From assembly GCF_000186345.1 (NCBI RefSeq), contig NC_014957.1, positions 1 to 56,340 of the forward strand: DNA of 56,340 nt, written 5' to 3'. The notes under the pieces were generated by a model. It ran no database searches. It saw only the letters and a program-made list of their open reading frames with translations, and was not told the origin of the DNA. This stretch comes from Isosphaera pallida ATCC 43644 (GTDB taxonomy: Bacteria; Planctomycetota; Planctomycetia; Isosphaerales; Isosphaeraceae). Shown here piece by piece: positions 18,159-50,683 of the stretch (position 1 is its first letter; each line of letters starts with the position of its first letter). The translations under genes and the position numbers were made by a program.

Positions 18159-18347
18159 CGAGTCGTTTGGGGGAGGGGAGGTCTGCGTGGGTTGCGGCTG
18201 AGCCGACATGATGGGGTCTGCATGATGGGGTCTGGTGGTGGGGGCGTTTTGGCGCGGAACGACCTAGGCGAGGGTGGTTGGGGGTTAGAATGTGGGAGGC
18301 GCGAGGGTGGAGGATCCGGGTTGGAACCAGACGACGGGACCGGCGCG

Positions 18348-19706: not shown

Positions 19707-19838
19707 GCGGTGGCCGTGCCGGTCCTGGGGCGGGTCGTTCCCTGTCTCTGGGCCGTGGCGGGCGCGACGAACCGCTCCGGGCGGCCTTGGGAGGGAGTTT
19801 TTTTCTGGTCTGGTTGGGATGGGCCGGCTCGGGGGGAC

Positions 19839-22258: not shown

Positions 22259-22307
22259 CCCGCGACCTCAACGGTCGGCTCGCCACCTCAGCCCTTTGCC
22301 TCCACGT

Positions 22308-22338
22308 CCCTGGGGTGACGCCGCGTGTCACCCCAGGG
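22308..22338. terminator. 12-bp stem hairpin between convergent genes
   Basis: CCCTGGGGTGAC at 22308-22319 pairs perfectly with GTCACCCCAGGG at 22327-22338 over a 7-base loop. It sits between the stops of the exported protein and the HAL2-like phosphatase. No T tract, but the stem and its place suggest a bidirectional terminator. Confidence 0.65.
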
Positions 22339-22417
22339 GCGGTGAGTTTGATTGGCTCGTGGGATGGAGCTGGCGAGGAAGTCGGGCGGGACGGCCGCGG
22401 AGGGCAGGGGCCGCGGC

Positions 22418-23560: not shown

Positions 23561-24102
23561 CCATCCTCCCTCCGGGTTGTCGTGTCCACTCCCACCCAAG
23601 CGTAGCCGAGCGCGGGGCGAATCATCCGCTTGGGTTGCCGCTTGGGCTGGCCCACGTCGCGCCTTGTTCGCCTGGGATGGGTTCGGGTTGGACCGTCCCA
23701 CGGCACCGCAGGCCAGCCAAGCGGAGCAGGCCGCCCCTGATGCTACCGCGCGGCGTGGTTGGACGCGCCCAGGTCGCGCCACCCGATCCCATCCCATCCC
23801 ATTCCATCCCATTCGATCGGACCGGACCGGACCGGATCGGACCGGACCGGACCGGACCGGATGGATTTGGTGTCGGACAGCGCCGCGTCCGGGCGTAACA
23901 ATCATGACGAGCCGGGCCGTGGTGTTCCCTAGGCGTCGGGTTGCCGAGGGCGCAGCGCCACGGTTCAATCTTGTTCGAGTGTCCAGGGTGGTTTCGCTCT
24001 GGGGGGTGGGCGCGTGGGGCGCGCGGATGGTGGTGGTCCCCATGTCAGGCGGTGATGTAACGTAACGTGATATGATGTGATGTTATGTTGAGTTGATCGA
24101 CG
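23561..24102. other. Divergent intergenic region with pentamer microsatellites
   Basis: Between the leftward phosphatase and the rightward glycosyltransferase. It holds CATCC/CATTC units at about 23786-23815 and then CGGAC units (with a few CGGAT) at about 23818-23862. Nearer the glycosyltransferase start are GTAAC and GATGT-type short repeats (24056-24090). No gene is visible. Confidence 0.7.
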
Positions 24103-25335
24103 GTGATCTGGCATTTGGGCAAATACTATCCCCCGGCGCCCGGCGGCATTGAGACCCACGTTCGCACCTTGGCCCAGGCCCAGGCGGCTCTGGGGGAGGA
24201 GGTGGGGGTGGTCTGCGTGCGTCACGACGGCGGCGCGACCAACCGGGAGGAATGGGATGGACCGGTTCGAGTGGTGCGTTTGGGCCGTTGGACCCAGATT
24301 GCCAAGCTCGACGTGTGCCCCCAGGTGGTCTCGACTCTGCGACGCCTCACGGCAGCGGCGCGCATCCTGCACCTTCAAACCCCCAACCCCCTGATGGTCC
24401 TGGCGCTTCGGATGGTCCAACCCCGATGCCCCTGGGTGATCACGCATCAAAGCGACGTGCTCGTACAGAAGCTGCGGGCGCGGTTGCTGGAGCCATTCGA
24501 CGCATGGGTTTACGACCGGGCCTTGCGGGTGCTGGCCACCTCGCCGCCTTATGTCAACGGATCGCCCAAGCTGCGGCGTGCCCGCGCGGCGGGGCAGCTG
24601 GGGATTTTGCCCAACGGGATCGACCTCGAGCCTCTGATCCACCCCTCGGCGGCGGACCTCGACCACGCCCACGCCCTCCGCCAGCGTTGGGCCGACCGGG
24701 GACCAATCTGGCTGGGCTGCGGACGGTTCATCTACTACAAAGGGTTTCTCAACGCAGTCCGCGCCTTGGCGCAAACCCCGGGCACCCTGATCTTGGTGGG
24801 GGATGGTCCCGACCGACCGGCCATCGAGGCGGAGGCCCGCCGTCTGGGGGTGCGCGACCGTTTGGTGTTGCCCGGCGCAATGGATTATCGCGCCATTACC
24901 CCTTACTATTTAGCATGCGACGCCTTTTGGTTCCCCTCGATCGCGCGGACCGAGGCCTTCGGGATCGCTCAGGTCGAGGCGCTGGCTGCCGGCAAGCCGG
25001 TGATCAACACGGCGATCCCCGATTCCGGGGTCGCCTGGGTGAGTCCCCATGAGCAAACGGGTCTCACCGTCCCCCCCCACGACCCAGCCGCCTTGGCCGC
25101 TGCGGCCCGTCGTCTGCTGGAGGAACCCGGTTTGGCACAACGCCTCGGCCAGGCCGCCCGCCAACGCGCTTTGAGCGAGTTCGATCACCGCGTCATGGCC
25201 CGGCGCGCTTTGGAGTTCTACCACCCATCCGCGCCCTCCCAAGCCCCAACCGGCCCCGCCCCCCAACCCCCGTTGCCCACACCCCGGCACGACCCACCAG
25301 ACGCGACCCCACCAGGGAACGCCTCCGCCTCCTGA
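24103..25335 (+). CDS. GT4 family glycosyltransferase
   Basis: Probable retaining glycosyltransferase of 410 residues for polysaccharide assembly on the cytoplasmic face of the membrane. It opens with HLGKYYPPAPGGIETHVRTLA, the Gly-rich acceptor loop common in GT4 enzymes. The donor half has LGCGRFIYYKGF, LVGDGPDRPAIEAEA and the EX7E motif in TEAFGIAQVEALAAGKPVI. The start is a GTG, fixed by a TGA three codons upstream. The last 40 residues are Pro/Ala-rich and beyond the domain. Divergent from the phosphatase gene and convergent with the exported protein downstream. The sugar is unknown; the domain call is firm. Confidence 0.93.
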   Translation: MIWHLGKYYPPAPGGIETHVRTLAQAQAALGEEVGVVCVRHDGGATNREEWDGPVRVVRLGRWTQIAKLDVCPQVVSTLRRLTAAARILHLQTPNPLMVLALRMVQPRCPWVITHQSDVLVQKLRARLLEPFDAWVYDRALRVLATSPPYVNGSPKLRRARAAGQLGILPNGIDLEPLIHPSAADLDHAHALRQRWADRGPIWLGCGRFIYYKGFLNAVRALAQTPGTLILVGDGPDRPAIEAEARRLGVRDRLVLPGAMDYRAITPYYLACDAFWFPSIARTEAFGIAQVEALAAGKPVINTAIPDSGVAWVSPHEQTGLTVPPHDPAALAAAARRLLEEPGLAQRLGQAARQRALSEFDHRVMARRALEFYHPSAPSQAPTGPAPQPPLPTPRHDPPDATPPGNASAS

Positions 25336-25420
25336 ACGGCCGCGCCACGCCGGGCGTCGAAGCGACGGGACAGGGCAGGGGGGAGAGACGACGCCTCCAC
25401 AAGACAGGTGGGGGAGACCC

Positions 25421-26614
25421 TCAGCGATTGGCCGCCGCAAGGGCGCGGAGGATCGCCAAGCGGGCGTCCCGGGGCACTCCATCCCGAATCAATACCTGTT
25501 CAATCGCTTGGGCAGAACCTTCAGCGCGGACGTGGCGGAGTTGGCCTTGGGCGTCGCGGTAGCAGGCCTCCAGCTGGATCTGACCGTTGACCGAGGCGAC
25601 CGCCATACCTTCTACCCCGGGGCGGTTCGCGGCCGTGGTGGTCGCCGCGGCCGCCTGTGCCGTGGTCGTGACCTGGCTTGACGCCTCCGCGCGCGACCGG
25701 GCCGTGACTGGGACGCCCAACCGTTCGGCCAAGGCGGACGCCTTGGCCGCCGCCAAGTCGTCCGGGGAGGCAACGGGGGGAACCTGGGCGTCGTCCGCCT
25801 CGGCGTCGCTTGGCTCCTCGTCCCAACCCTGGTCGAAGTCCCAGTCCGAATCGAACTCGTCCTCGAACTCGAACTCCAGGTCAGGGTCGTGGTGGGCATC
25901 CAGATCGTCCTCCCTGTTGGGACCCAACGGGCTGATCAAGGAATCGACCATGCCGACGATCAGGGGAGGCAGTCCCTGGCGCTGGAGGAGTGCGGCGCGG
26001 GTGATCGGGTCCAGGCCGAGGTCGAGTCGCAAGCTGAACTCGCGGATCGGCAACCGCTGCATTCCGCGGCGGAGCGAGTGGGGGTGGCGGGGCTGGTCGA
26101 ATTGGTCGGCTGGCTTTTCCCACCCCGGACGCGAACCCTGCCAGCCCCGAACCGCCACGTGGTCGTCGTAGCGGGTGAGGAACACCGTCAGCTGCGCCTC
26201 GTGGTAGATCAGCGAGGCCAGCGGGTGGGCCGCGACAGCCGGAGCGGCCAACGGGACGGAGCCAGGGACCCCGGCCAAGGGAGAGCCGGTCGTCGGGGGG
26301 GGGTCGGTCGGGACCAACGCCCGCGCCGGCGGGTTGAACCGGGCCGTCAGGTCGGCGAGTTCGGCCTGGATGCGGGACCGGGCCTGGGCAACCTCCTGAT
26401 CGATCCCACGGCCCGAACCGCTGGCCAACCCGGGCGGTTGCGCGTCAACAGCCACGCCCCAAGGCCCCCACCCCCACCCCCACAGGGTCAAGGTGGTCGC
26501 GCCCCACGCCCCCAGCCAAGCCGCGCAACGGCCAGCCCGGCGACGCCCCCACTGCCAATCCCGGAAGAACGAACCAGCAACCGTCGCGGCGGGATGATGC
26601 CTCATTGGATTCAT
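25421..26614 (-). CDS. Predicted exported protein with acidic stretch
   Basis: A 397-residue protein from the ATG at 26614. The N-terminus is basic (MRHHPA, WGRRRAGRC) followed by a Trp/Gly/Leu-rich hydrophobic run (LTLWGWGWGPWGVAV) and a likely signal cleavage after VDA before QPPG. The mature part has a helical segment (IDQEVAQARSRIQAELADL), an Ala/Pro linker, a strongly acidic stretch at about 235-275 (EFEFEDEFDSDWDFD) and an Ala-rich C-terminus ending LRALAAANR. No known domain recognised. The frame is open 114 residues further upstream, but that part is Arg/Pro-rich. It lies among polysaccharide genes; its function is unknown. Confidence 0.6.
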   Translation of the reverse strand: MNPMRHHPAATVAGSFFRDWQWGRRRAGRCAAWLGAWGATTLTLWGWGWGPWGVAVDAQPPGLASGSGRGIDQEVAQARSRIQAELADLTARFNPPARALVPTDPPPTTGSPLAGVPGSVPLAAPAVAAHPLASLIYHEAQLTVFLTRYDDHVAVRGWQGSRPGWEKPADQFDQPRHPHSLRRGMQRLPIREFSLRLDLGLDPITRAALLQRQGLPPLIVGMVDSLISPLGPNREDDLDAHHDPDLEFEFEDEFDSDWDFDQGWDEEPSDAEADDAQVPPVASPDDLAAAKASALAERLGVPVTARSRAEASSQVTTTAQAAAATTTAANRPGVEGMAVASVNGQIQLEACYRDAQGQLRHVRAEGSAQAIEQVLIRDGVPRDARLAILRALAAANR

Positions 26615-27247
26615 GGTCGCAGCCTTTCTTCGCGCCACGGAGGTCAGGGGAAGCCCCCCCCCAAAAAAACCACCTTCTTCCGCCGAGGCGTGGGGAGAGG
26701 GGAGGGGGGGGAAAGGGGAGGGGAGAGGGGACAGGGGGTCGTCAACGAATCGGGTCGGGTCGGGTCGAGTCGGGTCGAGTTGGATCGGCTCGCCTCGGCT
26801 CGCGTCCCGCCGCGCCTTCTTCCGCAACCGGAGGGCCGCGGCGTCACCCACCCGCGGCGGGTTCGATCGGTCTGGACCAGGCTGGCCGCGCGGTTGCGCG
26901 GTTGGGCGGTTGGTGGGCCGCTGGAGACGCCATGTTTGGACGAATCTGGCCCTCATTGACCAAAGCGGATTCCGTGGTGTAGGATGGAGGCAACAAGGCA
27001 GGGTTGCTCTGTTTCAACGGTTCACGCTCAGGGAGGGCGTGGCGCGAACCGTACCAAACCGAGCCGTTTCCTCCCGTGCCCAGGTCGTCGATTCTGGGGC
27101 GGTTTGGGTTGGACTCGGGCGGACTTGGGCCGTTTCGGTCGGCCAGGGTTTTGGTCGCGGTGGTGGCGACCCGCGCGACCGATCCGGGTGATGGCAGACC
27201 AACCCGGGCCACCGGGTTTGCGCCATTGGGACGAGGTGTCGCCCCCC
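26615..27247. other. Divergent intergenic region upstream of epsI
   Basis: Contains a purine-rich block (GGGGAGAGGGG types, 26695-26735) and GTCGG/GTCGA pentamer units at about 26750-26780. Promoters for the leftward exported protein and the rightward EpsI operon should be here. The right part is open in the EpsI frame, so the EpsI start could be earlier (ATG at 27191). Confidence 0.5.
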
Positions 27248-28126
27248 ATGACCAACCGTTTTGGTACTGGCTTGGCCACGGCCCGTGGCGTGCGTCTGGC
27301 TTTGGTGGTGGTTTTGCTGCTGGGTTCGGGTGCCTGGCGGTGGATCAAAGCCCGCCAGGTCGAGGACCGAGTCCAGGCCGAACGCCTCTGCCCGATCCGC
27401 TTGGCCGACCTGCCGCTTCAGGTGGGCAACTGGACCGGGCGGGACGCCCAGCTCGACCCCATCATTAGTCGCAACTCCGGCGCCACCGATCAGCTGTATC
27501 GCCGCTACGTGGATGAGCGCACCGGAGTCGAATTGGAAATCGTGATCCTGTACGGTCCGGCCCGCGAGATGTACGCCCACGATCCCCAGTTTTGCTACCC
27601 GCTGGCCGGCTATCAGCCGGTGGGACGTTCCACGGTGCGGGTCGTGGCCATCCCTGCTGGGGACGCGGACCCGGTGTCGGCCCCCTCCCGAGTTGGCATC
27701 GCACTGGAGGCTGGCCGCGCCTCGGCCACGCCGCCGGCCAACGTCCTGGCTGCGCCCTTCACCGCCTCGGTCTACACCCGAGTCGGCCGCGGCGAAACCC
27801 AGGAGGTGTATTGCGGGTGGCGGCTGCGTGGCGAGTTCGCCGCCTCGCCCGGCATGTACAAGACGGTCGAGCGTCTGGGCGGGATGTTCAAGATTCAGCT
27901 GGCCCGCCTGATCCGCCCCGGCGAACTGACCGGCAACCAACTGCCCTCCGGTGCCGCCGACCCCGGCCATCCCATCGAGCAGTTCCTCGGCGAGTTCCTG
28001 CCCCATCTCCAACGCGCCTTGGACCAAGCTGGCTCGTCCCCACGCCCCCGTTCTGGTTCGGCTTTGAGTTCAAGCTCCCCCGCGGGCCTGGCCCCGCCGG
28101 CGGCTTCGGTCTCCCCCACCCCGTGA
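27248..28126 (+). CDS. EpsI-like exosortase-associated protein
   Basis: A 292-residue member of the EpsI family, which accompanies exosortases in polysaccharide clusters; the biochemical role is not settled. One N-terminal membrane segment (RLALVVVLLLGSGAW) is followed by a periplasmic domain with the family pattern LPLQVGNWTGRD, LVELEIVILYGPAR-like strands and DPQFCYPLAGYQPVG. Two conserved features, the CYP motif and YKTVERLGGMFKIQLARL near the end, fit the family. A Ser/Pro-rich tail follows. The ATG at 27248 has GAGG about 12 bases upstream and places the membrane helix near the N-terminus; an ATG at 27191 is the alternative. It is the first gene of a tight run with the copolymerase and exosortase. 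Confidence 0.82.
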   Translation: MTNRFGTGLATARGVRLALVVVLLLGSGAWRWIKARQVEDRVQAERLCPIRLADLPLQVGNWTGRDAQLDPIISRNSGATDQLYRRYVDERTGVELEIVILYGPAREMYAHDPQFCYPLAGYQPVGRSTVRVVAIPAGDADPVSAPSRVGIALEAGRASATPPANVLAAPFTASVYTRVGRGETQEVYCGWRLRGEFAASPGMYKTVERLGGMFKIQLARLIRPGELTGNQLPSGAADPGHPIEQFLGEFLPHLQRALDQAGSSPRPRSGSALSSSSPAGLAPPAASVSPTP

Positions 28127-28147
28127 CGCGACGTGAACCCCCGGTTT

Positions 28148-30937
28148 ATGGACAACGCCTCCCCGCACGCTCTGCCCACTCCGGCTCCAACCCCGGCGCT
28201 GCTCCCCTGGTCGCCCGCCCCAGTCACGCCGTTGGCGGCCGTTGGGCCGCCGGCGGGATGGGGGGCCTTCTTGGAGTCCGATCACGCGGGCCGGGCCGGG
28301 GTCTTCAACCCTCGTTCCATCCTGCGGTCGATTCGCCGCCACCTCCTGGCCGTGCTGCTGCTTTGGCTGGTCGGGGCCGCGGTCTTAGGCGGGGCCGCTT
28401 ACGTCCTGGTCCGACCCACCTTCGAGGTGGCCGCCGTGGTCGAAGTCGCGCCGCCGGCCCCCGGGGTCTTCGTCACCTCCAACTCCGGCCTGGATCAGGA
28501 AATGTACATCCAAAACCAGGTCGCCTTGGCCTCCAATACCCGGGTCTTTACCGCCGCGCTGGCCAAACGCAACGACCTGGCCAGCCTCCCCTCATTGCGC
28601 GACGCGGACGACTTCGTGGAGCGGTTGCGCAAGCTCATCAAGGTGATCCGCGACCCCAAAAACAGCCTCATCTCCATTGGCATGACCAGCGCCGATCCAG
28701 CTGAGGCCGCCGAGATCGTCAACGCCGTGGTGGACGCCTACCTCCAAAATGCTGAGCAATGGGTCGATCAAGAAACCCGGCGCGCCATTGACCGCTACAA
28801 GGAGATGATCCGGGCGCGCGAGCTGGAAGTGCAGGCCCGCCGCAAGGAGATCGAGGCGATCGCCGCCCAGCTTCAAGGCGGGGCGGACCTCGAATTGGTC
28901 AAGGATCAAAATAAACTCTCCATCGAACAAATCCGCCGGCTCACCGATCAAAAATTCCTCATCGAACTGGAGCTACGCAAGGCCGAAACCTATCTCAAGG
29001 CGTTGGAGCGGCGGCGCGACGAGCAGGCCCAGGCCCGCCCCTCCAACGACACCGGGTCGATCGCCGGGGACGCCCTGGGTGGGGCAGGCAACCCCGATGC
29101 CGGCTGGGGCTCCGAGTCGGAGGTGGGCGAGATTGCGGATGAGGTGTTGATGCATCCGATGGTCGCGCGGCTCTCGGCCGAGTTGGAGCGGGCCCGCGAA
29201 CGTTACGAGCGGGCGGCCCGCCGCGCTCGCGACCCCCGCAACGACCCGGCCACCCGGTTGGCCCGCCAGATGATGGAGGACTTGGCCGACCAATACCGCC
29301 GCCAGGTTCAACTCGTAGGCAGCCGGTTGGCCAAACTCGGCGGACTGCGCAACGAGCCGGGCGACGACCTGGACCGCGACCTGTTCCGCGCCCAGGTGGC
29401 GGTCAACCAACTCCAAACCAGTTTGGACCTCTTCGAGACCAAACTTTCCGAGGTGAAGATCGACTCCGAGAACACCGGCGACAACAAGACCAAACTCTAC
29501 TTTGCGCAACTGGAATACGAGCAGGCCAAACGCGAGGCCGACGCGATCCGCAACCAACTCAATCAACTGACCTTCAAGGCCGAAAGCCCGCTCCCCATCA
29601 ACGTGCGTAGCTACGCCTCGGAGGTGGGCAACCCCCGCACCAACCACCGCAGCCGGGTGCTGGCGGCCGTGCCGTTGCTCTGGGGGGTGGTGGTGGTGGC
29701 CGGCTTCGTGCTTTGGGACGCGCGGGCCGGACGGGTCGCCGACCCCGAGGAGTTGGCCGAGCGCACCGGCCTGGAGGTGCTGGGCGTGGTGCCGAAGGTG
29801 CCCGGCCTAGGTCAAGGCACCGCCCCGTTAGGGCTGCCCGACGCCGAGCATCTGACCCCCCGTCTGCGGCGTCGTCTCGACGAGTTCGCCCAAAGCCTGG
29901 ACCATCTGCGGGTGGTGTTGTGTCAGAGCCAGCGGCTGGGCCAGCCTGGAGGCTCCGCCTGGTGGTCGGGGGGGGGCGGTGACCCCGCGGCCTTGGTCGG
30001 CGGGTGGCCCGCTAGCAAGCGATGCGTGCTGATCACCTCGGCGGTCTCGGGCGAGGGCAAAACCACCGTCGCGGCCCACCTGGCAGCGCGTTGCGCCTCG
30101 GCAGGCCTGCGAACCCTGGTGATCGACGCCGACCTGCGGCGGCCGTCCTTAACCGCGCTGCTGGGATTCAGCGACGCGCCGGGGTTAACCGATCTGCTGG
30201 CACCGGAGACCACGGGCGACCCGAGGGCCGCCCAGGCCCAGACCGTGGCCGGCGGGGAACCGCCGCCGCCTCTTGCGATTGCCATCGAAGACTGTCTGCG
30301 GGTGGTCGAGCCGTTGGGTCCAGGGATGGGGGGCTACGTCGTGTTGCCCTCGGGTCCTCATCGTGGCGATCCGGGACGCCTGGTCCAACAGCCCCGCCTC
30401 GGCGAGATCCTGGCCCGTCTGCGCGACCGCTTCGACATCGTGCTGGTCGATGCGCCGCCGCTTTTGCCAGTGCCCGACGCCTTGGTCGTGGCACGCTGGA
30501 CCCAAGGCGTGCTGCTGGCAGTGCGTCACGAAGCCTCCCGCCACCCCCAGGTCGAACGGGCCCGTCGCAAGCTCGACGCGGTGCGGGTGCCGATCCTGGG
30601 GGCCGTCGTCAACGCCGTGGTCCGCAATCGCGACGCCGAATCCAGCGCCGGCTTCCACTACGGCGGCTATGGGTATGGCTATGGCTATGGGTATGGCTAT
30701 GGCTATGGCTCGAGCAACGACAACGCGGAGGATGTCAAGGTCAAGAGCCACGGTGACACCGCGGCGGTGGCCAACAGCAGCGCCAGCGGCAACGCCAACG
30801 CCAACGGCAGCGGCCCAGACTCAGACCCAGACTCAGACTCAGGAAAGGCCCCAGCGGCCCCGACAGCATCACCGTGGTTGGCCGCGTCGGGGGATTCCGC
30901 CCAGGCCGATGGTGACTTGGGAGGCCGGGCCTCATGA
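28148..30937 (+). CDS. Wzc-like polysaccharide copolymerase / tyrosine kinase
   Basis: Inner-membrane protein of about 930 residues that should set polysaccharide chain length and couple it to tyrosine autophosphorylation. Order: a Wzz-type N-terminal membrane helix (HLLAVLLLWLVGAAVLGGAAYVL), a long periplasmic coiled-coil region, a second helix (VLAAVPLLWGVVVVAGFVL), then a BY-kinase domain with Walker A SGEGKTTVA (about 635), Walker A' VIDADLRRPS and Walker B DIVLVDAPPL. The C-terminal tyrosine cluster is eight Tyr separated by Gly (30663-30711), followed by an Asp/Ser-rich tail. I use the ATG at 28148; a GTG at 28133 is equally possible. The stop overlaps the exosortase ATG by 4 bases, so translation is probably coupled. 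Confidence 0.93.
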   Translation: MDNASPHALPTPAPTPALLPWSPAPVTPLAAVGPPAGWGAFLESDHAGRAGVFNPRSILRSIRRHLLAVLLLWLVGAAVLGGAAYVLVRPTFEVAAVVEVAPPAPGVFVTSNSGLDQEMYIQNQVALASNTRVFTAALAKRNDLASLPSLRDADDFVERLRKLIKVIRDPKNSLISIGMTSADPAEAAEIVNAVVDAYLQNAEQWVDQETRRAIDRYKEMIRARELEVQARRKEIEAIAAQLQGGADLELVKDQNKLSIEQIRRLTDQKFLIELELRKAETYLKALERRRDEQAQARPSNDTGSIAGDALGGAGNPDAGWGSESEVGEIADEVLMHPMVARLSAELERARERYERAARRARDPRNDPATRLARQMMEDLADQYRRQVQLVGSRLAKLGGLRNEPGDDLDRDLFRAQVAVNQLQTSLDLFETKLSEVKIDSENTGDNKTKLYFAQLEYEQAKREADAIRNQLNQLTFKAESPLPINVRSYASEVGNPRTNHRSRVLAAVPLLWGVVVVAGFVLWDARAGRVADPEELAERTGLEVLGVVPKVPGLGQGTAPLGLPDAEHLTPRLRRRLDEFAQSLDHLRVVLCQSQRLGQPGGSAWWSGGGGDPAALVGGWPASKRCVLITSAVSGEGKTTVAAHLAARCASAGLRTLVIDADLRRPSLTALLGFSDAPGLTDLLAPETTGDPRAAQAQTVAGGEPPPPLAIAIEDCLRVVEPLGPGMGGYVVLPSGPHRGDPGRLVQQPRLGEILARLRDRFDIVLVDAPPLLPVPDALVVARWTQGVLLAVRHEASRHPQVERARRKLDAVRVPILGAVVNAVVRNRDAESSAGFHYGGYGYGYGYGYGYGYGSSNDNAEDVKVKSHGDTAAVANSSASGNANANGSGPDSDPDSDSGKAPAAPTASPWLAASGDSAQADGDLGGRAS

Positions 30938-31998
30938 GCGTCGGTTCCCGCGGCCACGCTTCCGACTGGCGACGGCCCTCCCCTGCCGCGGTGACGACCT
31001 CCTCCGCTTCCCATGAGCGGTGCGACCCGGCCGACCCGGCTCCGCCAACCGCACCGGCCCGGCTCGACGCGGCCGCGTTCCAGGCGGGGTTGACCATCGC
31101 CGTGGTTGCGGTGTCGTTTGGGCCCAACTTGGTCAACCTGGCGTGGTACAAGTGGTTGACCGAACCCAACTACAGTCATGGATGGCTGGTGCCGCCCATC
31201 GCTGGGCTGATCCTGTGGAAGCGGGCCGCCTGGCTGAGACCCGCGCCGCCTACCGACTTGCTTTCCGGTTCGAGTCGAGGGCGGCGGGGCCGCCGGGCGT
31301 GGGCGTCCTGGTTCCCCTGGGGTTGCCTGGTTGGCCTGCTGGCCGCCCTGGCGTTCCGGGCCTGGCTTTATGAACGCAACGAGGAATGGCTGGAGACCTT
31401 CGGACTGATTCCCACCCTGGGCCTGGCGCTTGGAACGGTGGGCGGCCTGGCCTGGCTGCGCTGGAGCTGGCCGGCCTTGCTGTTTTTGATCTTCATGGTG
31501 CCGCTGCCGGGACGGGCGGATGCGTTCCTCGCCGGTCCCTTGCAGACCCTGGCGGCCATTGGTGCGGGCTTCCTGCTGCAACTCGCCGGCTTGCCCGCCC
31601 TGGTCGAAGGCAACACCCTGGTGGTGGCCGGGCAACGTTTGGAGGTGGCACGCGCCTGCAACGGTCTGTCGATGCTGATCTCGCTGAGCTGTTTGGTGAC
31701 CGCCTATGTGCTGCTGACCAACGACCCGCCCTGGAAAAAGCTGCTGCTCTTGGCCTCGGCGGTCCCGATCGCCTTGGTCAGCAACATCTTGAGGATCACC
31801 GCCACCGCGGTTTGCTACGAGATTTGGACCCCGGAGATCGTGGACGACTACGCCCATGACTTCGCCGGATACGCCATGATGCCCGTCGGCTTCGCCCTGG
31901 TGCTGCTCCAGTCGGGGTTGATCGACCTGGTGTTCCAGGGCCAGAGCGAGCCGTCCCCCCGCGGCCATCCGCCGCCGACCGCCCGCCCCTCCGCCTGA
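30934..31998 (+). CDS. Exosortase (transmembrane peptidase/transpeptidase)
   Basis: Polytopic membrane protein of 354 residues of the exosortase/archaeosortase family, thought to cleave and transfer C-terminal sorting signals of exported proteins. The proposed catalytic residues are all present: C242 in ARACNGLSM, R287 in SNILRITAT and H308 in DDYAHDFAGYAMMP. About eight hydrophobic segments are visible, with a long cytoplasmic Pro/Ala-rich N-terminus (1-50) and the NYSHGWLVPPI motif near the first helix pair. The ATG overlaps the preceding stop. No protein in the window ends in a recognisable sorting signal (short motif, helix, Arg cluster), so the substrates are probably chromosomal. It may be one of the planctomycete subtypes; I cannot assign it. 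Confidence 0.93.
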   Translation: MSVGSRGHASDWRRPSPAAVTTSSASHERCDPADPAPPTAPARLDAAAFQAGLTIAVVAVSFGPNLVNLAWYKWLTEPNYSHGWLVPPIAGLILWKRAAWLRPAPPTDLLSGSSRGRRGRRAWASWFPWGCLVGLLAALAFRAWLYERNEEWLETFGLIPTLGLALGTVGGLAWLRWSWPALLFLIFMVPLPGRADAFLAGPLQTLAAIGAGFLLQLAGLPALVEGNTLVVAGQRLEVARACNGLSMLISLSCLVTAYVLLTNDPPWKKLLLLASAVPIALVSNILRITATAVCYEIWTPEIVDDYAHDFAGYAMMPVGFALVLLQSGLIDLVFQGQSEPSPRGHPPPTARPSA

Positions 31999-32240
31999 AC
32001 CATGCGTCCCGATTGCCCGCCCCTCTCAGGGCATGGCATTGGCCCCGGCCCGGCTCACCGCCGGCTCACCGCCCGGCCGAGGACTCCTTTGAAGTCGAAG
32101 TTGAAGTCGAAGCAGATGGATCGCCCCGCCTTGGCACGGATCGTCTTGGCGTCTCCCGAATCGAACCTCTCCCGGTCTGATCGGAAGCGACCGACTCCCT
32201 TGACCCCCCCCGACCCGATCCCGGCCAGGCGCCCTCACCC

Positions 32241-35200
32241 ATGACCACGCCCACTCCGCTCCACGACCCCCACGGCACGCCGTCGAGACCAAGCCCGCCG
32301 CCCTCGTCTCCACCCGCGCCGCCCACGCCCCACGGCCGGACCCCGACTGCCCCACGGCTCAACCTCAGAGGGTTGTTCCTCGTCTCGGGGCTGTTTCTGG
32401 TCATTGGGCTTGGGGGGCTAGCGCTCCACCTTCACCAATTGAGCCGGGGACCGGCCGCCTGGCTGGCCGAGGCCCAACGGCTGGCGATGGCCGGGCGGCT
32501 CGACCTGGCCCTGGGCTTTCTGGAGCGGGTCTTGGAACAGCAGCCCCGCCACCCCGAGGCGCTGGCCCGCCGCGCCGAATGGCGCTTGAGCCTCGTCCGC
32601 GGCCCGGCCGACCTCCGCGCGGCTCGTGACGACCACGAGGAGGCGATCCTGGCGGCCCCCGATGCCCCCGACCGCCAGGCGCTGCGCCGCCGCGCGGTGG
32701 AACTCGACCTGTTAGTGGGCCAGACCGCCGCGGCGCTCAACCACGCCCGCGACCTGATCGCTCGGGGAGCCCACGACGCCCAGGCTTACCGCCTGCTCGG
32801 CGAGGCGCTGGAGGCCTCCGCCAAAGTCCGCACCGCCGCCGACGCCGCCTTGATCGAAGCCCGCGATGCCTACCGCACCGCGCTGGACCGCGACGACCGC
32901 GACCTCGCAGCGCTGGAGAAGCTGGCCGATCTCGAAGCCCTGGTCTTCCGCGACACCGACGCGGCCGACGCGCTGATGGCCCGCGCGTTGGAGGTCGCCG
33001 CGCGTCTGGCCAAGAAGGGAGGTTCGGTCTCCTCCGCCCCCGGCGTGGAGCAGGGGCCAAGGACCAGCGTGGAGGCTCCTGGGTTGGAGGACCCTGCCGC
33101 GTTTCGGTCCTCGCCAGCCGCTCCGCTGGCCACGATCGCCCCGAGGGACCCCGCGTCGTTTGTCTCTGACCCCGCCGCCCGCGGCTTCGCCACGGGACCG
33201 GAGATTGCCGCGCGGTTGATCCGCCAACGCCACTACCAAAAACGCGGCCGCGGCGACCTGGCCGCTCTTGAACTCGACGAGGCAATCAAGCTCGACCCCG
33301 CCAATGCCTTGATCCGCCGCGCTGCGGCCGAACTGGCCTTGGACCGCGGCGACCCCGAGGCGGCCCGCCGCCACTTGGACGCCATCCCGCCCCAGGACCG
33401 CTCCAGCCCCGACCACGCCCTAATTGAGGGACGGGTCCTCGAGGCTCAGGGCCGCATCGAAGAGGCGCTGGCATGTTGGCGTCAAGGGATGTCCCTAGCC
33501 AAAGGGGGCGATCCGGCCTTGGCGTTCCAGACGGCCTTGACCCTGCTGCGCCAGGGACGGTTGGCCGAGGCCGAACCAGCGATCGCCGCCCATCGCCGCC
33601 TCACCTGGGACGACCGCGCTCGCCAACCCTCCGACTCGGCCCGCTTTCTCCAAGCCCTGGCCGATCTGAAAACCCGCCGCTCCGCCCGCGCTGCGGAGGC
33701 GTTGGAGGTGCTGGCGGTCAAGGCCTCGCCGGCGTTGAAGTTTCAGGCCACCCTCGCTCTGGGGCAAGCCTATGAGCAACTCGCCCGCCGGGACGACGCG
33801 GTGGAGGCTTACGCCAAGGCGGCCGATCTCGAACCCGGGCGGGTCGAACCGTGGTTAGCCCAGGCCCGTCTTCTGGGACCGGTCGAGCCAGTCCGAGCGC
33901 TCAACCTCCTCGAAACGGCGCTCGGACGCTTGCCCGGCGACGAGCGGTTGTTGGAAGCGCTGGCCGAGCGGGTCGCCACCCTGCGGCGTCGCCGCCTCGA
34001 CGACCCCGAGGTGCGCAACGCCGTCGAGCGGGCCGCGGCCGTCGCCGCCCAGGGGGCCGGCTCCTCCGACCGTCCCGGCTTGGCGCTGATCCGCGCCGAA
34101 CGCGCCTGGACCGAGAACCAGCCCGACCGGGCCGCTCAACTGCTCGACGAGGCGCTGCAACGTCATCCCGATGATCCGCGGTTGGTTCTGGCCCGCGTCG
34201 AAACCGACCTCAGGCAGGGACGCGCGGGACCCGCGCTGGAACGCCTCGAGCAGGCCGCCCACCGCGGGGTCCCCTTCGAGCCGGTCGAGCTGCGCTGCGC
34301 CCGCGCGGTGTGCCTGTCGCGGGCCGGACGCCCCGAAGCGGCCAAAGCCGCGCTCACAAGCGACCTGGAGGATCTCACCACGGGTCAGCAAGCCCGGGTC
34401 TGGAAAGTCCTGGTTGAACTGGCCGATCAGGAATGGAACGACCCGGCTACCGCCCGCTGGGCGGTCCAATCCTGGCGCGACGCGGCCCCCGACGACTTCG
34501 ACGCCCACGCCCGCGCCTTGGACCTGGCGTTGGCCACTGGCGACCTCGCGGCAGCCCAGGACGCCACCGCGCAGCTCGAACGGCTCGACGGCACCGGTCT
34601 GTACCAGGGTCTCAACGCGGTCTGGCCCGCGTTGATCGCGTTGCAACGCGCCGCCACGGCGGAGGCTGACTCCGACCTGCGCCGCCGGGTCGAACCCACC
34701 CTAAGGGCGGCGGTGGACCAACTGCGTGACCTCTCCCAGGCGCACCCCGAGCAGGCGATCCCGGCGATGCTCACGGCCCGCATCCTGCGTTGGCTCAACG
34801 ACCTGGAGGGAGCGATCGAGGCGGCCCGCACCGCCGTCGAGCGCGACGGTGCCCCCGCCTCGGTGGCCTTCCTGGCCGAACTGCTGGCGCGGGGCGGCCA
34901 CGTGGCTGCGCTGGACGCCTTGGCTCAACGCCACCCCAACCAGACGCTGCTGATCCGCCGCCTCCAGGCCGAAGCCCTCGCCGCGGCGGGCCAGGCCGAC
35001 CCGGCCCGCCGTCTGGCGGCCCAGCTGGTTGAGGCCGACCCCTCCAACCCCGCGCTGCGTCTGTGGCAGGCCAAGCTCGAACGCGACGCCCTCCACCAGC
35101 CCGACAACGCCGAGGCAATCCTGCTCGACTTGATCGCCCGCCGTCCCGGCGACACCGGCCCGTGGTTGGCCTTGCTCGATTTCAAGACCAAGCAGCACCA

Positions 35201-37145
35201 AGCCCAGGCCAAAACCAACCCCGACGCCCCCCCCGCTCACGAGGCCCTAGCAGCGCTCCGCACCCGGGCCCTCACCGAAGCCAAGCCGGATTCCCCCGCG
35301 CTTTGGAAAGCTCAGGTGGCCGCCGTGCTAGGCGATCGCGCCGCGGCGATTGACGCCTACTACGACGCGGTCCGCGCCCGCCCCAACGACCCGGCCACCA
35401 TCGACGAGGCCTCCCGCTTCTTCGAGTCCACCGGACGCCTCGACCTGGCCGAACGGGCCCTCAAGCTGCTGGTCCGCGACTTCGGAACGCCCCCCGCCAA
35501 TCCCTCCACCGCCCCCAACCCCGCCGCGTCTGCGTCCGCCTCTGCGTCTGCGTCCGCGTCCGCCGCCAATCCCCTAGCGGTGCCAGGTCCCACCGTTGCC
35601 GTCGCCGCCGACGCCAGCGCCACGCCACCACGGTGGGCGGTGCGACGCCTGGCCCGCCTGCTGGCGTCCCGCCCGGTGGACGGGCTGGCTCAGGCCACCG
35701 CAAGGCGTCTGGTCGATGCTCTGGCCAGTCAGTCCAACACCCCGGCCGATCGTTTGGTCCGGGCCGAGGTTTACGCGGCCTCGGGCGACCCCCGCCACCG
35801 CCTCCAGGCCGATGCATGGCTCGCGGACCTGGTTCGTGACCGCCCCGGCGATCTCGACGCCCACGCCCTGTTGGCCCGTCTGCGGGAACAACGCGGTGAC
35901 TACGCCGGCGCGCTGCCCCACGCCGAGGCGCTGGCCCGCGCGGGTCGTCCCGACGCCCTGGCCTATTACGCCGGCCTGCTGATTCGCGCGGGTCAACTCG
36001 ACCAGGCCCGCGCCGCGCTCGATCAGTTGTTGGAACGTCACCCCTCCGACCCCCGCACCCTGGAACTCCATGCCCGCTGGCTCCACGCCCAGGGACGGGT
36101 CGAGCCCGCCATCGAGGTGGTGGCCGAGGGGTTCCAAACCGCCCTCCAGCGTGCCACGCTGGCCCCCGCCGCCGTGGACCTGACCCCCACCAACGCGGCG
36201 TCCCCTTCTCAAGCCCCCCCGCCTGTCCTGGCCTCGACCGCCTCGCCGGAGTCGGCCCGTCGTCTCGACGAGGCGGCCGCGATGGTCGCGCTGATGGCCC
36301 GGATCGGCCCGCCCCAGCAGGCCGTTGAACTGGCTCGCCGCCTGGTCGCCGCCTGGCCCTCCCCCGCGGCCGCAGCGCGGGTTGGGCTGACCCTAGGTTC
36401 GATCGGTCGGGCCGACGAGGCGCTCCGCTTGATCCGTGCCACCACCCCGCCCCCCGGCTCCGAAACCGGTGACACCCCCGCGGCCCGCGCGGCCGCCAAC
36501 GACCTGGGCGACCTGGCCAAAGTCGCGCTGGCGCTGGGAGCCGCCCCCAATGGGCCGCCCGAGGCATTCGACCTGGCCGAAACCTTGCTCAACCGCGCCT
36601 TGGCGGCAATTCCCGATCCCGCTCGCGCTGCTCCAGCCGATTGGATTCAAGCCCGCGCCTTCCTCAACCACCGCCGGGGACGCCACATTCAGGAGGTCAA
36701 TGACTACGGCGACCTGCTGCGACGCACCCCGCCACCCCGCGACCTGCGGTTCCTCAATAACCTGGCGTGGACCCTCTGCGAACTGCTCAAGCGACCCCAC
36801 GACGCCTTGCCCTATATCGACGCGGCAATCGATCGCGTCGGTTGGAATGAAAATCTGCGCGACACCCGGGGCGTTATCCTCACCCGCCTGGGCCGTTACG
36901 ACGAGGCCGCCGCCTATCTGGGCGAGACGATCGAGGCGTTAGGGTCCAGCGCCTCGGCCCCACTTCACTATCACCACGCCCGCGCATTGCTGCTGGCAGG
37001 CCAGACCGAGGCCGCCCGCGCCGCCTTCGCCCGCGCCCGCGCCGCCGGTCTCGACCCAGAGGCGACGCTGCTTCAGCCCGAAGAGCGCGACGAGTACCGC
37101 CAACTGGCTCCACGCCTGGACCCCCCAACCCAAACCCAAGGATAA
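32241..37145 (+). CDS. Giant TPR-repeat protein, membrane-anchored
   Basis: 1634 residues. A Pro-rich cytoplasmic N-terminus (1-45) is followed by one membrane helix (GLFLVSGLFLVIGLGGLALHL) and then almost continuous TPR-like helical pairs, for example LDLALGFLERVLEQQPRHPEALARRAEWRL, cited here only by its two halves' pattern of small and aromatic positions. Two low-complexity linkers break the repeats: Pro/Ala-rich near 255-310 and an (SA)n stretch near 1095-1115 coded by GCGTCTGC-like units. In exosortase-linked polysaccharide clusters, large TPR proteins are common and are thought to scaffold periplasmic assembly or export. It lies 242 bp after the exosortase, in the same direction. No catalytic domain seen. 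Confidence 0.88.
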   Translation: MTTPTPLHDPHGTPSRPSPPPSSPPAPPTPHGRTPTAPRLNLRGLFLVSGLFLVIGLGGLALHLHQLSRGPAAWLAEAQRLAMAGRLDLALGFLERVLEQQPRHPEALARRAEWRLSLVRGPADLRAARDDHEEAILAAPDAPDRQALRRRAVELDLLVGQTAAALNHARDLIARGAHDAQAYRLLGEALEASAKVRTAADAALIEARDAYRTALDRDDRDLAALEKLADLEALVFRDTDAADALMARALEVAARLAKKGGSVSSAPGVEQGPRTSVEAPGLEDPAAFRSSPAAPLATIAPRDPASFVSDPAARGFATGPEIAARLIRQRHYQKRGRGDLAALELDEAIKLDPANALIRRAAAELALDRGDPEAARRHLDAIPPQDRSSPDHALIEGRVLEAQGRIEEALACWRQGMSLAKGGDPALAFQTALTLLRQGRLAEAEPAIAAHRRLTWDDRARQPSDSARFLQALADLKTRRSARAAEALEVLAVKASPALKFQATLALGQAYEQLARRDDAVEAYAKAADLEPGRVEPWLAQARLLGPVEPVRALNLLETALGRLPGDERLLEALAERVATLRRRRLDDPEVRNAVERAAAVAAQGAGSSDRPGLALIRAERAWTENQPDRAAQLLDEALQRHPDDPRLVLARVETDLRQGRAGPALERLEQAAHRGVPFEPVELRCARAVCLSRAGRPEAAKAALTSDLEDLTTGQQARVWKVLVELADQEWNDPATARWAVQSWRDAAPDDFDAHARALDLALATGDLAAAQDATAQLERLDGTGLYQGLNAVWPALIALQRAATAEADSDLRRRVEPTLRAAVDQLRDLSQAHPEQAIPAMLTARILRWLNDLEGAIEAARTAVERDGAPASVAFLAELLARGGHVAALDALAQRHPNQTLLIRRLQAEALAAAGQADPARRLAAQLVEADPSNPALRLWQAKLERDALHQPDNAEAILLDLIARRPGDTGPWLALLDFKTKQHQAQAKTNPDAPPAHEALAALRTRALTEAKPDSPALWKAQVAAVLGDRAAAIDAYYDAVRARPNDPATIDEASRFFESTGRLDLAERALKLLVRDFGTPPANPSTAPNPAASASASASASASAANPLAVPGPTVAVAADASATPPRWAVRRLARLLASRPVDGLAQATARRLVDALASQSNTPADRLVRAEVYAASGDPRHRLQADAWLADLVRDRPGDLDAHALLARLREQRGDYAGALPHAEALARAGRPDALAYYAGLLIRAGQLDQARAALDQLLERHPSDPRTLELHARWLHAQGRVEPAIEVVAEGFQTALQRATLAPAAVDLTPTNAASPSQAPPPVLASTASPESARRLDEAAAMVALMARIGPPQQAVELARRLVAAWPSPAAAARVGLTLGSIGRADEALRLIRATTPPPGSETGDTPAARAAANDLGDLAKVALALGAAPNGPPEAFDLAETLLNRALAAIPDPARAAPADWIQARAFLNHRRGRHIQEVNDYGDLLRRTPPPRDLRFLNNLAWTLCELLKRPHDALPYIDAAIDRVGWNENLRDTRGVILTRLGRYDEAAAYLGETIEALGSSASAPLHYHHARALLLAGQTEAARAAFARARAAGLDPEATLLQPEERDEYRQLAPRLDPPTQTQG

Positions 37146-46651: not shown

Positions 46652-47066
46652 TCCAGCGCAACCCCCCATTTTCAACCGCCACCCGCTTGACCTCAGCCGA
46701 GGCGCGGTTTAAGTTAAGCTTGGACCTTTGACAATCCGGCATGTTCCTGCAAGACCCTCCCCACAAGCGAGGGGACAGCGTGATGCTGAACAAGGTTCGG
46801 TTTGTCTCACGGCTGGCATTGCGAGCGGTTCCGACGACATCCCAGCTGTCTTGAATGAATCGGTCGCAACCTTCAGACTCCCAAGCGGTTGCGTCAACGA
46901 TCCCCGAGTGGAGCCACCAGCAACCTCTCGCGTTTCGCAATTTCCTCTCCCGCTGAGAGTTGCGTCGTCGCCTTCGCTCGGACGGTTGACGTTGAGTCCT
47001 CAGCGTGACGGACCGCTCGCAAATTGATCCGGGGGATGTGATCCGATAAGGAGTTAGGACGACTCC
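46652..47066. other. CRISPR leader region
   Basis: Gene-free DNA directly left of the first repeat. The array's degenerate repeats are at the far right end, so new spacers should be added here and transcription should run rightward from it. I could not pick a promoter; the best -35-like element, TTGACA at 46728, has no matching -10. Confidence 0.55.
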
Positions 47067-49232
47067 GTTCCGCACCCCTCCGGGGGTGCGGCACCATTGA
47101 AACGCTTTGAGCTTGGCTTCACGCCGCCCTCCCGCGGCGGTTCCGCACCCCTCCGGGGGTGCGGCACCATTGAAACAAGATCGCGTTTTGCGATCCTTGA
47201 CGTCCTCTCCAGCGTTCCGCACCCCTCCGGGGGTGCGGCACCATTGAAACGAGAGGACGCGGTTGGACGTTGACACGATCAGCCATGTTCCGCACCCCTC
47301 CGGGGGTGCGGCACCATTGAAACGACGCGGTTGTTGAGGAAAACGCGCGCTGAGGGGAAGTTCCGCACCCCTCCGGGGGTGCGGCACCATTGAAACAGGG
47401 GTGAGGCGTTGCCGCCGCCGCCCAATAAGGATGTTCCGCACCCCTCCGGGGGTGCGGCACCATTGAAACTAGTAAGGAATCGCAAGAAGTTCCTTGAGTT
47501 CATCGGTTCCGCACCCCTCCGGGGGTGCGGCACCATTGAAACTGACCTCATCGCAAACACGAGAATTGTTCCACGACGTTCCGCACCCCTCCGGGGGTGC
47601 GGCACCATTGAAACCAGGGTGACTAGAGAGCGCCCCCTCAGCGAAAGGGAGGTTCCGCACCCCTCCGGGGGTGCGGCACCATTGAAACCGGGAGAGGTAC
47701 CCCGAACTGGCGGACGCGCCAGTGTTCCGCACCCCTCCGGGGGTGCGGCACCATTGAAACTCCGAAGGCGGAAATAAAAATACACCAGCAGGTTCCGTTC
47801 CGCACCCCTCCGGGGGTGCGGCACCATTGAAACCCCCTCCGATGGGAGCCCGTGCTCCTCCAGCACGGACGCGTTCCGCACCCCTCCGGGGGTGCGGCAC
47901 CATTGAAACGCGAGCCCGCATCCTCGACCATATCGGCGAAGATGCGTTCCGCACCCCTCCGGGGGTGCGGCACCATTGAAACGTTGAGTATCGCAGCGGA
48001 TGCGATGTCCAGATTTTTAGTTCCGCACCCCTCCGGGGGTGCGGCACCATTGAAACTCGAAGTCGGGCCAGCGACTCTTCTTAGGGATCCGCCTGTTCCG
48101 CACCCCTCCGGGGGTGCGGCACCATTGAAACTGGGTGGTGATTCACTGGGCAATGACCGATCAATTCTGTTCCGCACCCCTCCGGGGGTGCGGCACCATT
48201 GAAACGTCCACATTGATGAAGTCCGCCACCTCTTGGGCGGGTTCCGCACCCCTCCGGGGGTGCGGCACCATTGAAACCCGCGGGGCGCCGCCTCTAAAAA
48301 CTCGATGGCGTAGTTCCGCACCCCTCCGGGGGTGCGGCACCATTGAAACCATCCTTGTAGCTCGCAGGACCAGACGCCGTATCGTTCCGCACCCCTCCGG
48401 GGGTGCGGCACCATTGAAACAACTCAATCGCATAGTACCTGTTGCACAGGGCGGCCGTTCCGCACCCCTCCGGGGGTGCGGCACCATTGAAACATCCTCA
48501 TGCGGATGTCGAAATGGCTTCGGGTTCCACCGGTTCCGCACCCCTCCGGGGGTGCGGCACCATTGAAACCGTGTGCGATCCTCGCGTTCCTGCCCACATT
48601 TCCAAGTTCCGCACCCCTCCGGGGGTGCGGCACCATTGAAACGCCCGATTCCATCGCCGACGGACAACAACAGGAGCGTGTTCCGCACCCCTCCGGGGGT
48701 GCGGCACCATTGAAACGGGGTAGCGTCCCCGAAGCCACTCAACGGCGCCGGGGTTCCGCACCCCTCCGGGGGTGCGGCACCATTGAAACGCTCCGGCCGC
48801 GTCCATCTCCGCGGCATCGTATTCGTTCCGCACCCCTCCGGGGGTGCGGCACCATTGAAACTGCCGCAGGTCGAACATGCTACGCAACGGCTCAAGGGGT
48901 TCCGCACCCCTCCGGGGGTGCGGCACCATTGAAACTGGTTAGAGCACGTGTCGCCCGTCCACCATCACTGGCGTTCCGCACCCCTCCGGGGGTGCGGCAC
49001 CATTGAAACGAAGAACGCGCGCTGCATCGGAGGATCATCTCTTCATGGTTCCGCACCCCTCCGGGGGTGCGGCACCATTGAAACGGCGGTCGAGAAGTTT
49101 CGGCTGCCGTCGGCCCGATCGGTTCCGCACTCCTCCGGGGGTGCGGCACCATTGAAACGGGGTATGGCGGCCCTCGCTTTCCTCGCGTGAGCCTGGTTCC
49201 GCACCCCTCCGGGGGTGCGGAACCATTGAAGC
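47067..49232 (+). CRISPR. CRISPR array: 30 repeats, 29 spacers, no cas genes
   Basis: Repeats of 37 bp begin GTTCCGCACCCC, have a TCCG loop and GGGGTGCGG, and end CACCATTGAAAC. Starts run from 47067 to 49196 at steps of 71-76 bp, leaving spacers of 34-39 bp. Within the repeat CCGCACCCC and GGGGTGCGG form a perfect 9-bp stem with a 4-base loop. The ATTGAAAC end is that of type I and III systems, giving the usual 8-base crRNA 5' handle after Cas6-type cutting. Repeats 1-28 are identical; repeat 29 (49122) has one change and repeat 30 (49196) has two, marking the old end on the right. No cas gene is in the window, so processing must come from elsewhere. Confidence 0.98.
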
Positions 49233-49367
49233 AAGTTCGCCCTCAAGTTTTGGATATCCACCCTGCTGATTTTCCTCGCGTTGGGGTTGCTTGGGTGGGT
49301 GGTCACCTTGGTAATGCTAAGGTTGTTGGTTTCGCTGCTTCAAGAGGTGTCTAGGTTGAGCGGGTGA
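49230..49367 (+). pseudogene. Possible C-terminal remnant of a membrane protein
   Basis: From the last CRISPR repeat onward a frame reads SKFALKFWISTLLIFLALG, LLGWVVTLVMLRLLVSLL and QEVSRLSG before TGA at 49365. It has the hydrophobic run of a membrane helix, but no ATG, GTG or TTG before the helix, and a TGA inside the repeat closes the frame just upstream. It looks like the tail of a gene cut by the array end. It could be chance. Confidence 0.3.
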
Positions 49368-49537: not shown

Positions 49538-50179
49538 TCAGGCGAGGAGTTCGGTACGCAGGATTTTCACCTGCATGGGGGCGGTGAAACGGAGGCGGGC
49601 CTGGCGGCCGCGCAGCCAAACCACTTCGAGCGTGACCTGTTCGCCCAGGTGAATCGTTTGGCCGGGTCGTCGTCCGATGACGAGGTGGCCGACGTGCTCG
49701 GCTAGTTCGGGCGGGGGCGGCGGGCTAGGCGCGTCGAGGATCTCGCCGCGGCGGATTCTCACGGCGCGGGGTCCGCACAGGTGGATCCGCACGTCTTGAC
49801 TGGTGAGTTTGCGAATGTCGATCCGGACCTCGATGGGGGGGTCGGCGGTTGGTGGCACGGCCTGGCGTGAGGCGGCATGGGGCGGGGTGGGGGTGGGGTT
49901 AGAAACCCAGCGCCTGGGGAGGAGCACCACCAACCCTTCCCCTTCCGAGCGGGTCACCACCAAGCGGCCGGATCGTTCGGCTGGGGCTGGGTCAGGTTGG
50001 GTGGGGGGCGGGGGCGGGTTGGGTTGAGGGGACGAACCGGGACGGACCAGACGGCTGGATTGGTCCAGCGGGTCACGCCGGCAACGCCTGCGTGCCAAGG
50101 GGGCCGCGGGACGGGTTCGCTCTCCCAGTGAACCACCACTGGGAAGAATCCATTCAAGGGGCGATGACGCTTCATGCAT
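49538..50179 (-). CDS. Tandem CsrA-domain protein
   Basis: Two CsrA-like RNA-binding domains in one 213-residue chain. Domain 1 (about 71-148) opens RLVVTRSEGEGLVVL, is interrupted by a Pro-rich insert (93-114), and continues IEVRIDIRKLTSQDVRIHL and GPRAVRIRRGEIL. Domain 2 (164-212) reads HLVIGRRPGQTIHLGEQV, TLEVVWLRGRQARLRF and APMQVKILRTELL. These align with the CsrA pattern LxLTRK-GE-I, a central strand, then AP-V-V-R-EI. The RNA-contacting Arg of CsrA (R44) corresponds to R144 and R208. CsrA is normally a 60-70-residue homodimer that binds GGA in mRNA; this chain could fold as an internal dimer. The first 70 residues are Arg/Pro-rich. The start at 50179 is uncertain; GGAA lies 12 bases upstream. 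Confidence 0.8.
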   Translation of the reverse strand: MHEASSPLEWILPSGGSLGERTRPAAPLARRRCRRDPLDQSSRLVRPGSSPQPNPPPPPTQPDPAPAERSGRLVVTRSEGEGLVVLLPRRWVSNPTPTPPHAASRQAVPPTADPPIEVRIDIRKLTSQDVRIHLCGPRAVRIRRGEILDAPSPPPPPELAEHVGHLVIGRRPGQTIHLGEQVTLEVVWLRGRQARLRFTAPMQVKILRTELLA

Positions 50180-50683
50180 CGACGCCGTTCCTTATGCAAA
50201 GGGTGTCGAAATCAACGAAGCAACGTCTTGATTGGGGGACGGTCGGGCAAACTCAACGATTGGTGCGGGTCAAGACCAATCCCGTTCCACTATCGCGGGC
50301 CCGCGCCACTCCAAACGACTAGAGGGGGAGGAAGGCCGTGACGCGGTTGGAAGGAAACTCTCAGGCCACGACAAACCACCGCGATCGTTAGTCAACGCCC
50401 GTGGTGAGTTGAGTCCAATCGAATAAGCGGGGTGGAACCAATCCAAGATGCGGAGATCCATCGCCTCTTGAATTCCACCAAAGTGTACTGTCGAGGGTGA
50501 AATTACGACATCGTGGCTGGTTTGTCAAACAAAAATCTCCGGAAACGATAGATTTTCGGATCAGGGACGAACGAGCGGCTTGGGGGTGATGGTTGAGCGG
50601 GTTTGGAACCGGACATGGCTGGGGATTTGGGGGGGCTTGATGGGTTTGAGTTGAGATTTGAGCGCGGTGGGGAGTGGAACAGG
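50180..50683. other. Leader region of the CsrA-like gene
   Basis: About 0.5 kb between the flippase stop and the CsrA-like start. It holds the promoter-like sequence at 50500-50528 on the minus strand and a GC-poorer stretch near it. A 63-residue frame on the minus strand (50461 to 50270) has AGAGG close to its ATG but no recognisable features, so I do not call it a gene. Confidence 0.5.
50500..50528 (-). promoter_or_regulatory. Sigma-70-like promoter upstream of the CsrA-like gene
   Basis: Read on the minus strand, TTGACA (50528-50523) is followed after 17 bases by TAATTT (50505-50500). This is the closest match to the housekeeping consensus I found in the window. It points at the CsrA-like gene and would give an untranslated leader of about 315 bases. 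Confidence 0.55.

Follow-up and report, generated by a model that had tools for sequence, protein, structure and literature searches.

Introduction

Can two units of a dimeric RNA-binding protein be paired privately in a cell that contains many paralogues of it? This question is posed by P0001, a protein encoded on the plasmid of Isosphaera pallida that carries two CsrA units in a single chain. Known members of the CsrA family are described as short homodimers of 65–75 amino acids on average, and their fold, their RNA sites and the traffic of csrA genes on plasmids and phages have been reviewed (PMC7366521). According to the same review, no heterodimer formed by CsrA paralogues had been shown up to 2020 (PMC7366521). 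In a symmetric homodimer any mutation hits both RNA-binding sites, so that the contribution of each is hard to test; in a natural chain of unlike units each site can be changed alone. If our reading is true, P0001 represents such a chain, in which the pairing of unlike units is fixed genetically. Plasmid-borne CsrA proteins with a single domain are already well known, e.g. RsmQ of the Pseudomonas plasmid pQBR103, which is described to bind GGA and ANGGA, to change host translation and to affect mainly the host proteome, and for which mixed pairs with the host proteins RsmA and RsmE were subsequently reported from a two-hybrid assay (PMC9928087). Like P0001, RsmQ is a plasmid-borne CsrA homolog; however, it is an Rsm protein of the ordinary type for which RNA binding has been shown (PMC9928087), whereas P0001 is known from its sequence and a structural model.

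The tandem csrA gene and its replicon

The window, which is the whole stretch of DNA that was analysed (56,340 bp), comprises the entire second replicon of I. pallida, the genome of which has 5,529,304 bp. For strain IS1B a chromosome of 5,472,964 bp and a plasmid of 56,340 bp have been published (PMC3072084), and the gene is therefore indeed located on a plasmid, as the sequence-only reading had proposed. The open reading frame of P0001, identified by translation and Pfam, lies with all its parts on the minus strand (49538..50179), starts with ATG and encodes 213 amino acids. An AAGGA, which is Shine-Dalgarno-like and at the same time an ANGGA motif, is found 14 to 10 nt 5' of the start codon (50189..50193, minus strand). 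The G+C content of the three codon positions is 0.75/0.58/0.72, with positions 1 and 3 exceeding position 2; this is, in a less sharp form, the pattern common to the large family-matched genes of the plasmid. The reading frame is thus confirmed as real, with a codon-position G+C compatible with coding sequence. The gene is flanked on one side by a CRISPR array and on the other, at a distance of about 500 bp upstream, by a gene that looks flippase-like by eye and is without a match to any Pfam or NCBIfam family.

P0001 contains two diverged CsrA units

The complete protein matches the Pfam CsrA family (PF02599) with an E-value of 3.1e-15 and 56.3 bits in two separate stretches, which bears out the proposed presence of two CsrA units in a single chain. 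The chain begins with a Pro/Arg-rich extension (residues 1-70, 49970..50179), which is probably disordered, as judged from its composition; a Pfam search up to an E-value of 10 reported CsrA only. It is followed by the N-terminal unit (residues 71-150, 49730..49969; defined by profiles and model), a Pro-rich linker (residues 151-163, 49691..49729; sequence and model), which stands at the place of the C-terminal helix of CsrA, and the C-terminal unit (residues 164-213, 49541..49690; profiles, model and superposition). In the HMM alignment, residues 73-85 of the N unit correspond to strands 1 and 2 and residues 117-149 to strands 3-5, and the C unit is aligned without interruption over residues 166-211. 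The Pro-rich insert inside the first unit, which the earlier reading had noticed, comprises the 27 residues 89-115 (49835..49915; alignment and low pLDDT) and is placed between strands 2 and 3.

A profile search of each half had been suggested as a check, and its outcome differs between the halves. Alone, the C unit reaches 45.3 bits (E 8.4e-12) and is clearly above the PF02599 gathering score of 27 bits, whereas the N unit alone stays below it with 19.2 bits (E 0.0012) and a match that is limited to profile positions 17-49. With a second CsrA HMM, built from the available CsrA frames with P0001 left out and controlled with 2000 shuffles, the N unit scored 18.6 bits, which none of the 2000 shuffles equalled (best shuffle 13.9). 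When the insert was removed for scoring, it reached 24.7 bits over profile positions 2-49 (best shuffle 13.3), and the C unit reached 47.1 bits (best shuffle 9.0). As the N unit exceeds all shuffles and the C unit is clear, the profiles assign both units to CsrA, with a very divergent N unit. The two units share 30% identity, so that the strong difference between them that had been noted is real, and the identity between the C unit and any of the CsrA domains compared does not exceed 44%. P0001 also remains below the cut-offs of the NCBIfam csrA equivalogs (TIGR00202, 36.2 versus 70.1 bits; NF002469, 43.3 versus 73 bits), which describe a short single-domain protein from which P0001 departs with 213 amino acids and two units.

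Both units retain the conserved arginine at the end of strand 5, which is R44 in CsrA: in the alignments it corresponds to R144 in the N unit (codon 49748..49750) and to R208 in the C unit (codon 49556..49558), in agreement with the claim of one RNA-contacting arginine per unit. The C-terminus of the protein is only five residues past R208. The equivalents of R6 are R77 and R170 and those of E46 are E146 and E210, in what we take to be the numbering of E. coli CsrA, and an Arg-Glu pair is hence present in both halves (R77/E146 and R170/E210). Together with R131, the N unit thus retains R77, R131, R144, and E146. It has a serine (S78) at the position of CsrA R7, and the C unit has a glycine (G169) at the position of T5.

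The predicted fold and its relation to known CsrA structures

Residues 66-213 were modelled as one chain with AlphaFold2 from an alignment of 44 sequences, in which the C unit is covered by all 43 other rows and the N unit by the query and P0002 only, the second tandem CsrA protein described below. The model has a mean pLDDT of 73.7 and a pTM of 0.65 and shows ten strands in two sets. Insert and linker are of low confidence, and the N unit has only a short strand 5 (142-144). At the Pro-rich insert, where pLDDT is low, no helix of at least four residues is formed, and the C-terminus contains a helical turn of 4 residues only instead of a C-terminal helix. The C unit could be superposed on the CsrA chains 1vpz, 2bti, and 5z38 with 0.7-0.9 Å (50-52 residues aligned); for the N unit, superposition on RsmE (2mfc) gave 2.2 Å over 56 residues. 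The RsmN chains 4krw, 4k59, and 4kji align from model residue 4 or 6 to residue 146 or 147 and therefore across both units, with 60 of 67 residues and 3.4 Å for 4krw. Since RsmN is an un-swapped form, a single RsmN chain lying over both halves is what would be expected of an intertwined single-chain dimer. The CsrA-family rows have Z-scores of 4.2-5.5, which unrelated beta folds equal or exceed, the top row among the PDB chains being an unrelated protein (Z 8.7), and no Foldseek match for the model reached E <= 0.001, with RsmF/RsmN at E 0.53 and 0.62 only. Structure prediction, which had been proposed to see whether the halves pair, thus yields a model compatible with a CsrA dimer, albeit at low Z, and gives support, not proof, for the predicted intertwining of both halves as one built-in dimer.

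With CsrA, RsmA and RsmE (PF02599), P0001 shares the profile match, the R44 and R6/E46 positions and units of five strands, which are predicted in P0001; it differs in having two unlike units per chain, neither of which is followed by a C-terminal helix. RsmN/RsmF of Pseudomonas aeruginosa (4krw, 4k59) also has, according to its structural description, an insert between strands 2 and 3, the conserved arginine and the Arg-Glu pair, and it lacks the C-terminal helix as well (PMC3791407). However, RsmN/RsmF is a homodimer of 71 amino acids with a helical insert of 16 residues, whereas the 27-residue insert of P0001 is Pro-rich and present in the first unit only. The Arg-Glu pair is described as an inter-subunit salt bridge in the swapped dimer of RsmA and as an intra-subunit one in RsmN (PMC3791407).

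A proposed single-chain pseudo-dimer with two unlike RNA-binding sites

In the swapped CsrA dimer, each RNA site is formed by strand 1 of one subunit and strand 5 of the other, and in the swapped dimer of RsmE both bound RNAs are touched by each subunit. We consider it rather likely, though far from certain, that P0001 is a covalent CsrA pseudo-dimer with two putative, non-equivalent GGA-binding sites. The two units of one chain would intertwine like the subunits of a normal CsrA homodimer, joined by the 13-residue Pro-rich linker where the first unit would otherwise have its C-terminal helix. Site I would then consist of strand 1 of the N unit (T76, R77, S78) and R208 of the C unit, and site II of strand 1 of the C unit (G169, R170, R171) and R144 of the N unit. 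Because each subunit of a swapped dimer touches both RNAs, the sites in P0001 would be fixed and unlike each other, and the built-in pair probably creates two different RNA-binding sites, which may be asymmetric in their specificity, as the earlier reading had suggested for the two halves. By analogy to RsmQ, P0001 would probably recognise motifs of the ANGGA type close to ribosome-binding sites, with repression of translation as its main effect.

Alternatively, the N unit might be a decayed copy of CsrA that acts as a structural partner and lends its strands to the C unit, leaving one functional RNA site. The score of the N unit alone, which is below the cut-off, the serine at the R7 position, the long insert and the short strand 5 all point in this direction. 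We nevertheless regard it as a doubtful explanation, as R77, R131, R144, and E146 are retained and as, with composite sites like those of the swapped dimer, neither unit would be inert in both. Still less probable appears a pairing between chains, in which two tandem proteins would form a dimer that has four sites, or in which longer, RNA-bridging chains would arise. The strand swap in CsrA dimers and the seemingly long and flexible linker and insert would suit such an assembly, and so would the model, for which AlphaFold2 was given one chain only; against it stand the within-chain packing that is predicted with a pTM of 0.65 and the alignment of RsmN over both halves.

The same genome contains six chromosomal CsrA genes and a fliW. 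As the mixed pairs of RsmQ with host Rsm proteins illustrate, free subunits can mix in a way that a fusion would avoid, and the covalent link in the proposed pseudo-dimer would prevent P0001 from mixing with the six chromosomal paralogues. That these paralogues capture the halves in mixed dimers, through which P0001 would tune or poison the Csr system of the host, is very improbable despite the precedent of RsmQ (PMC9928087) and the six host genes, because free subunits should lose out to a partner in the same chain and the C unit is so distant from the CsrA domains compared (at most 44% identity). From the absent C-terminal helix and extension we further infer that P0001 would be blind to FliW. 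The chromosomal fliW lies about 370 bp from a csrA gene on the same strand (G000:C2:635163-636045), and I. pallida is described as gliding (PMC3072084).

Distribution of tandem CsrA proteins

A PF02599 match is present in all 45 Isosphaeraceae genomes, and the 44 genomes other than I. pallida contain 421 matches up to E 0.05, out of which 367 are above the cut-off (hand count). Only two of the 45 genomes, I. pallida and the metagenome-assembled genome BP9.bin39 (G007), harbor a tandem CsrA, in a census that is near complete, in which pairs were picked by eye, second units weaker than E 0.05 are missed and several genomes are incomplete. Tandem CsrA is thus rare within the family. The second protein, P0002 (contig L121), is a chain of 181 amino acids in a frame of 186. 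Like P0001 it has two CsrA units per chain and comes from the same bacterial family, but its units are canonical with 57% mutual identity, it has no insert, and its neighbours are different. As a whole, P0002 exceeds the csrA equivalog cut-off (112.2 versus 70.1 bits), whereas P0001 is below. Its own model, made from two sequences, has a pLDDT of 64.6 and a pTM of 0.51, and the fold search with it was ambiguous, with CsrA chains at a Z-score of about 4 only and mixed with unrelated folds. The gene following that of P0002 encodes a protein of 263 amino acids (L121:912-1703, plus strand).

In a class-wide search with a profile of the tandem pair, which would miss divergent cases, 2 of 397 genomes were positive, again I. 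pallida and BP9.bin39 only. A search of the phylum with P0002 gave a match in 44 of 392 sampled genomes, and the 30 loci scanned contained no new tandem frame; as this search missed the I. pallida protein itself, divergent cases escape it. Among 186 scanned records (185 loci and the window), frames with two CsrA units were copies of P0001 or P0002 only. The loci L012, L014, and L015 were considered as further candidates, and the frames read there contain one CsrA each. For P0001, searches of the plasmid collection, the viral contigs and the genome-contig collection gave no match, and the viral contigs also contain no relative of P0002. With P0002 as the query, CsrA matches were obtained in 187 of 72,556 plasmid records and in 79 of 50,697 phage records; the four of the 187 plasmid matches that were examined are all single-domain genes. 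In two further genomes, two csrA genes are adjacent and point in the same direction in separate frames (G009:C5:1493575-1493990 and G026:C1:6575311-6575727), possibly reflecting a stage before fusion.

No shared neighbours were seen for the genes of P0001 and P0002, and with two such proteins only, no argument can be built on a conserved architecture. In a tree of 76 rows two origins are needed and the units of P0002 are sisters at 98/94, whereas a tree of 33 rows allows one origin at 77/86; both are based on only 54 columns with very long branches, and they differ as to a common origin of the two proteins. CsrA-CsrA architectures may also sit unremarked in domain databases. The earlier reading knew of no description of this form, and no tandem CsrA is described in the titles and abstracts of the literature matches listed, which leave most subscription journals outside their coverage.

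Candidate targets and leader motifs

ANGGA occurs in 10 of the 22 plasmid leaders, against a mean of 4.63 in shuffles, 6 of 1000 of which were as high. As the Shine-Dalgarno sequence contains the motif, the start codons were guessed and mononucleotide shuffling provides only a weak control, this excess is not used as evidence. The leaders with a match extend beyond the polysaccharide genes. Autoregulation via a GGA hairpin at the own start was considered for a TGCAT/ATGCA inverted repeat around the AAGGA and rejected, as each of its five pairs has a pairing probability of 0.0 after rounding. In the fold prediction the two Gs of this GGA are mostly paired elsewhere, and the leader of the tandem gene does not fold markedly better than its shuffles, 20 of 200 of which did as well (z -1.26).

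The polysaccharide genes mentioned in the sequence-only reading were recovered by family profiles, together with exosortase-related ones. Positions 17919-37145 of the window encode a nucleotide sugar dehydrogenase, two glycosyltransferases, an EpsI-like protein, a tyrosine autokinase and a PrsT-like TPR protein, with the EpsI, autokinase and PrsT models below their NCBIfam cut-offs; by gene content this region looks like an exosortase-linked exopolysaccharide cluster. Control of matrix polysaccharide by RsmA has been reported (PMC2984543), and that P0001 might likewise control matrix genes, as the sequence-only reading had proposed, is a guess. Taken to its full extent, P0001 would be a single-chain heterodimeric CsrA with sites for different motifs, which could read a two-part leader code, one site anchoring and the other discriminating, and it would be insulated from the six CsrA proteins and FliW, on a plasmid with polysaccharide genes and the sole ATP-type PEP carboxykinase gene found. 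We regard this complete picture as speculative and rather unlikely to hold in all its parts.

Other features of the plasmid

The CRISPR array (window 47056-49246) has 30 repeats spaced 71-76 nt, and its end is separated by about 290 bp from the 3' end of the tandem csrA gene; its last repeat, within 49185-49246, is degenerate. No cas family was found over its cut-off among the window proteins scanned, which were a part of the open reading frames, and a TPR protein in the window has a weak match, far below the cut-off, to a CRISPR PrimPol model. An enzyme of the aspartate ammonia-lyase/fumarase type is encoded at 12525-14267 (minus strand) and has, as called, about 110 extra N-terminal residues. 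It is just under the cut-off of the aspA equivalog (667.3 versus 681.2) and over that of the subfamily model NF008909, and the chromosome contains a second fumarase-C-type match. Finally, the plasmid carries pckA for an ATP-type PEP carboxykinase (5975-7552, plus strand; 771.8 bits), the sole PF01293 match in the genome, so that this central gene of gluconeogenesis appears, as far as the ATP-type family is concerned, to be encoded on the plasmid only.
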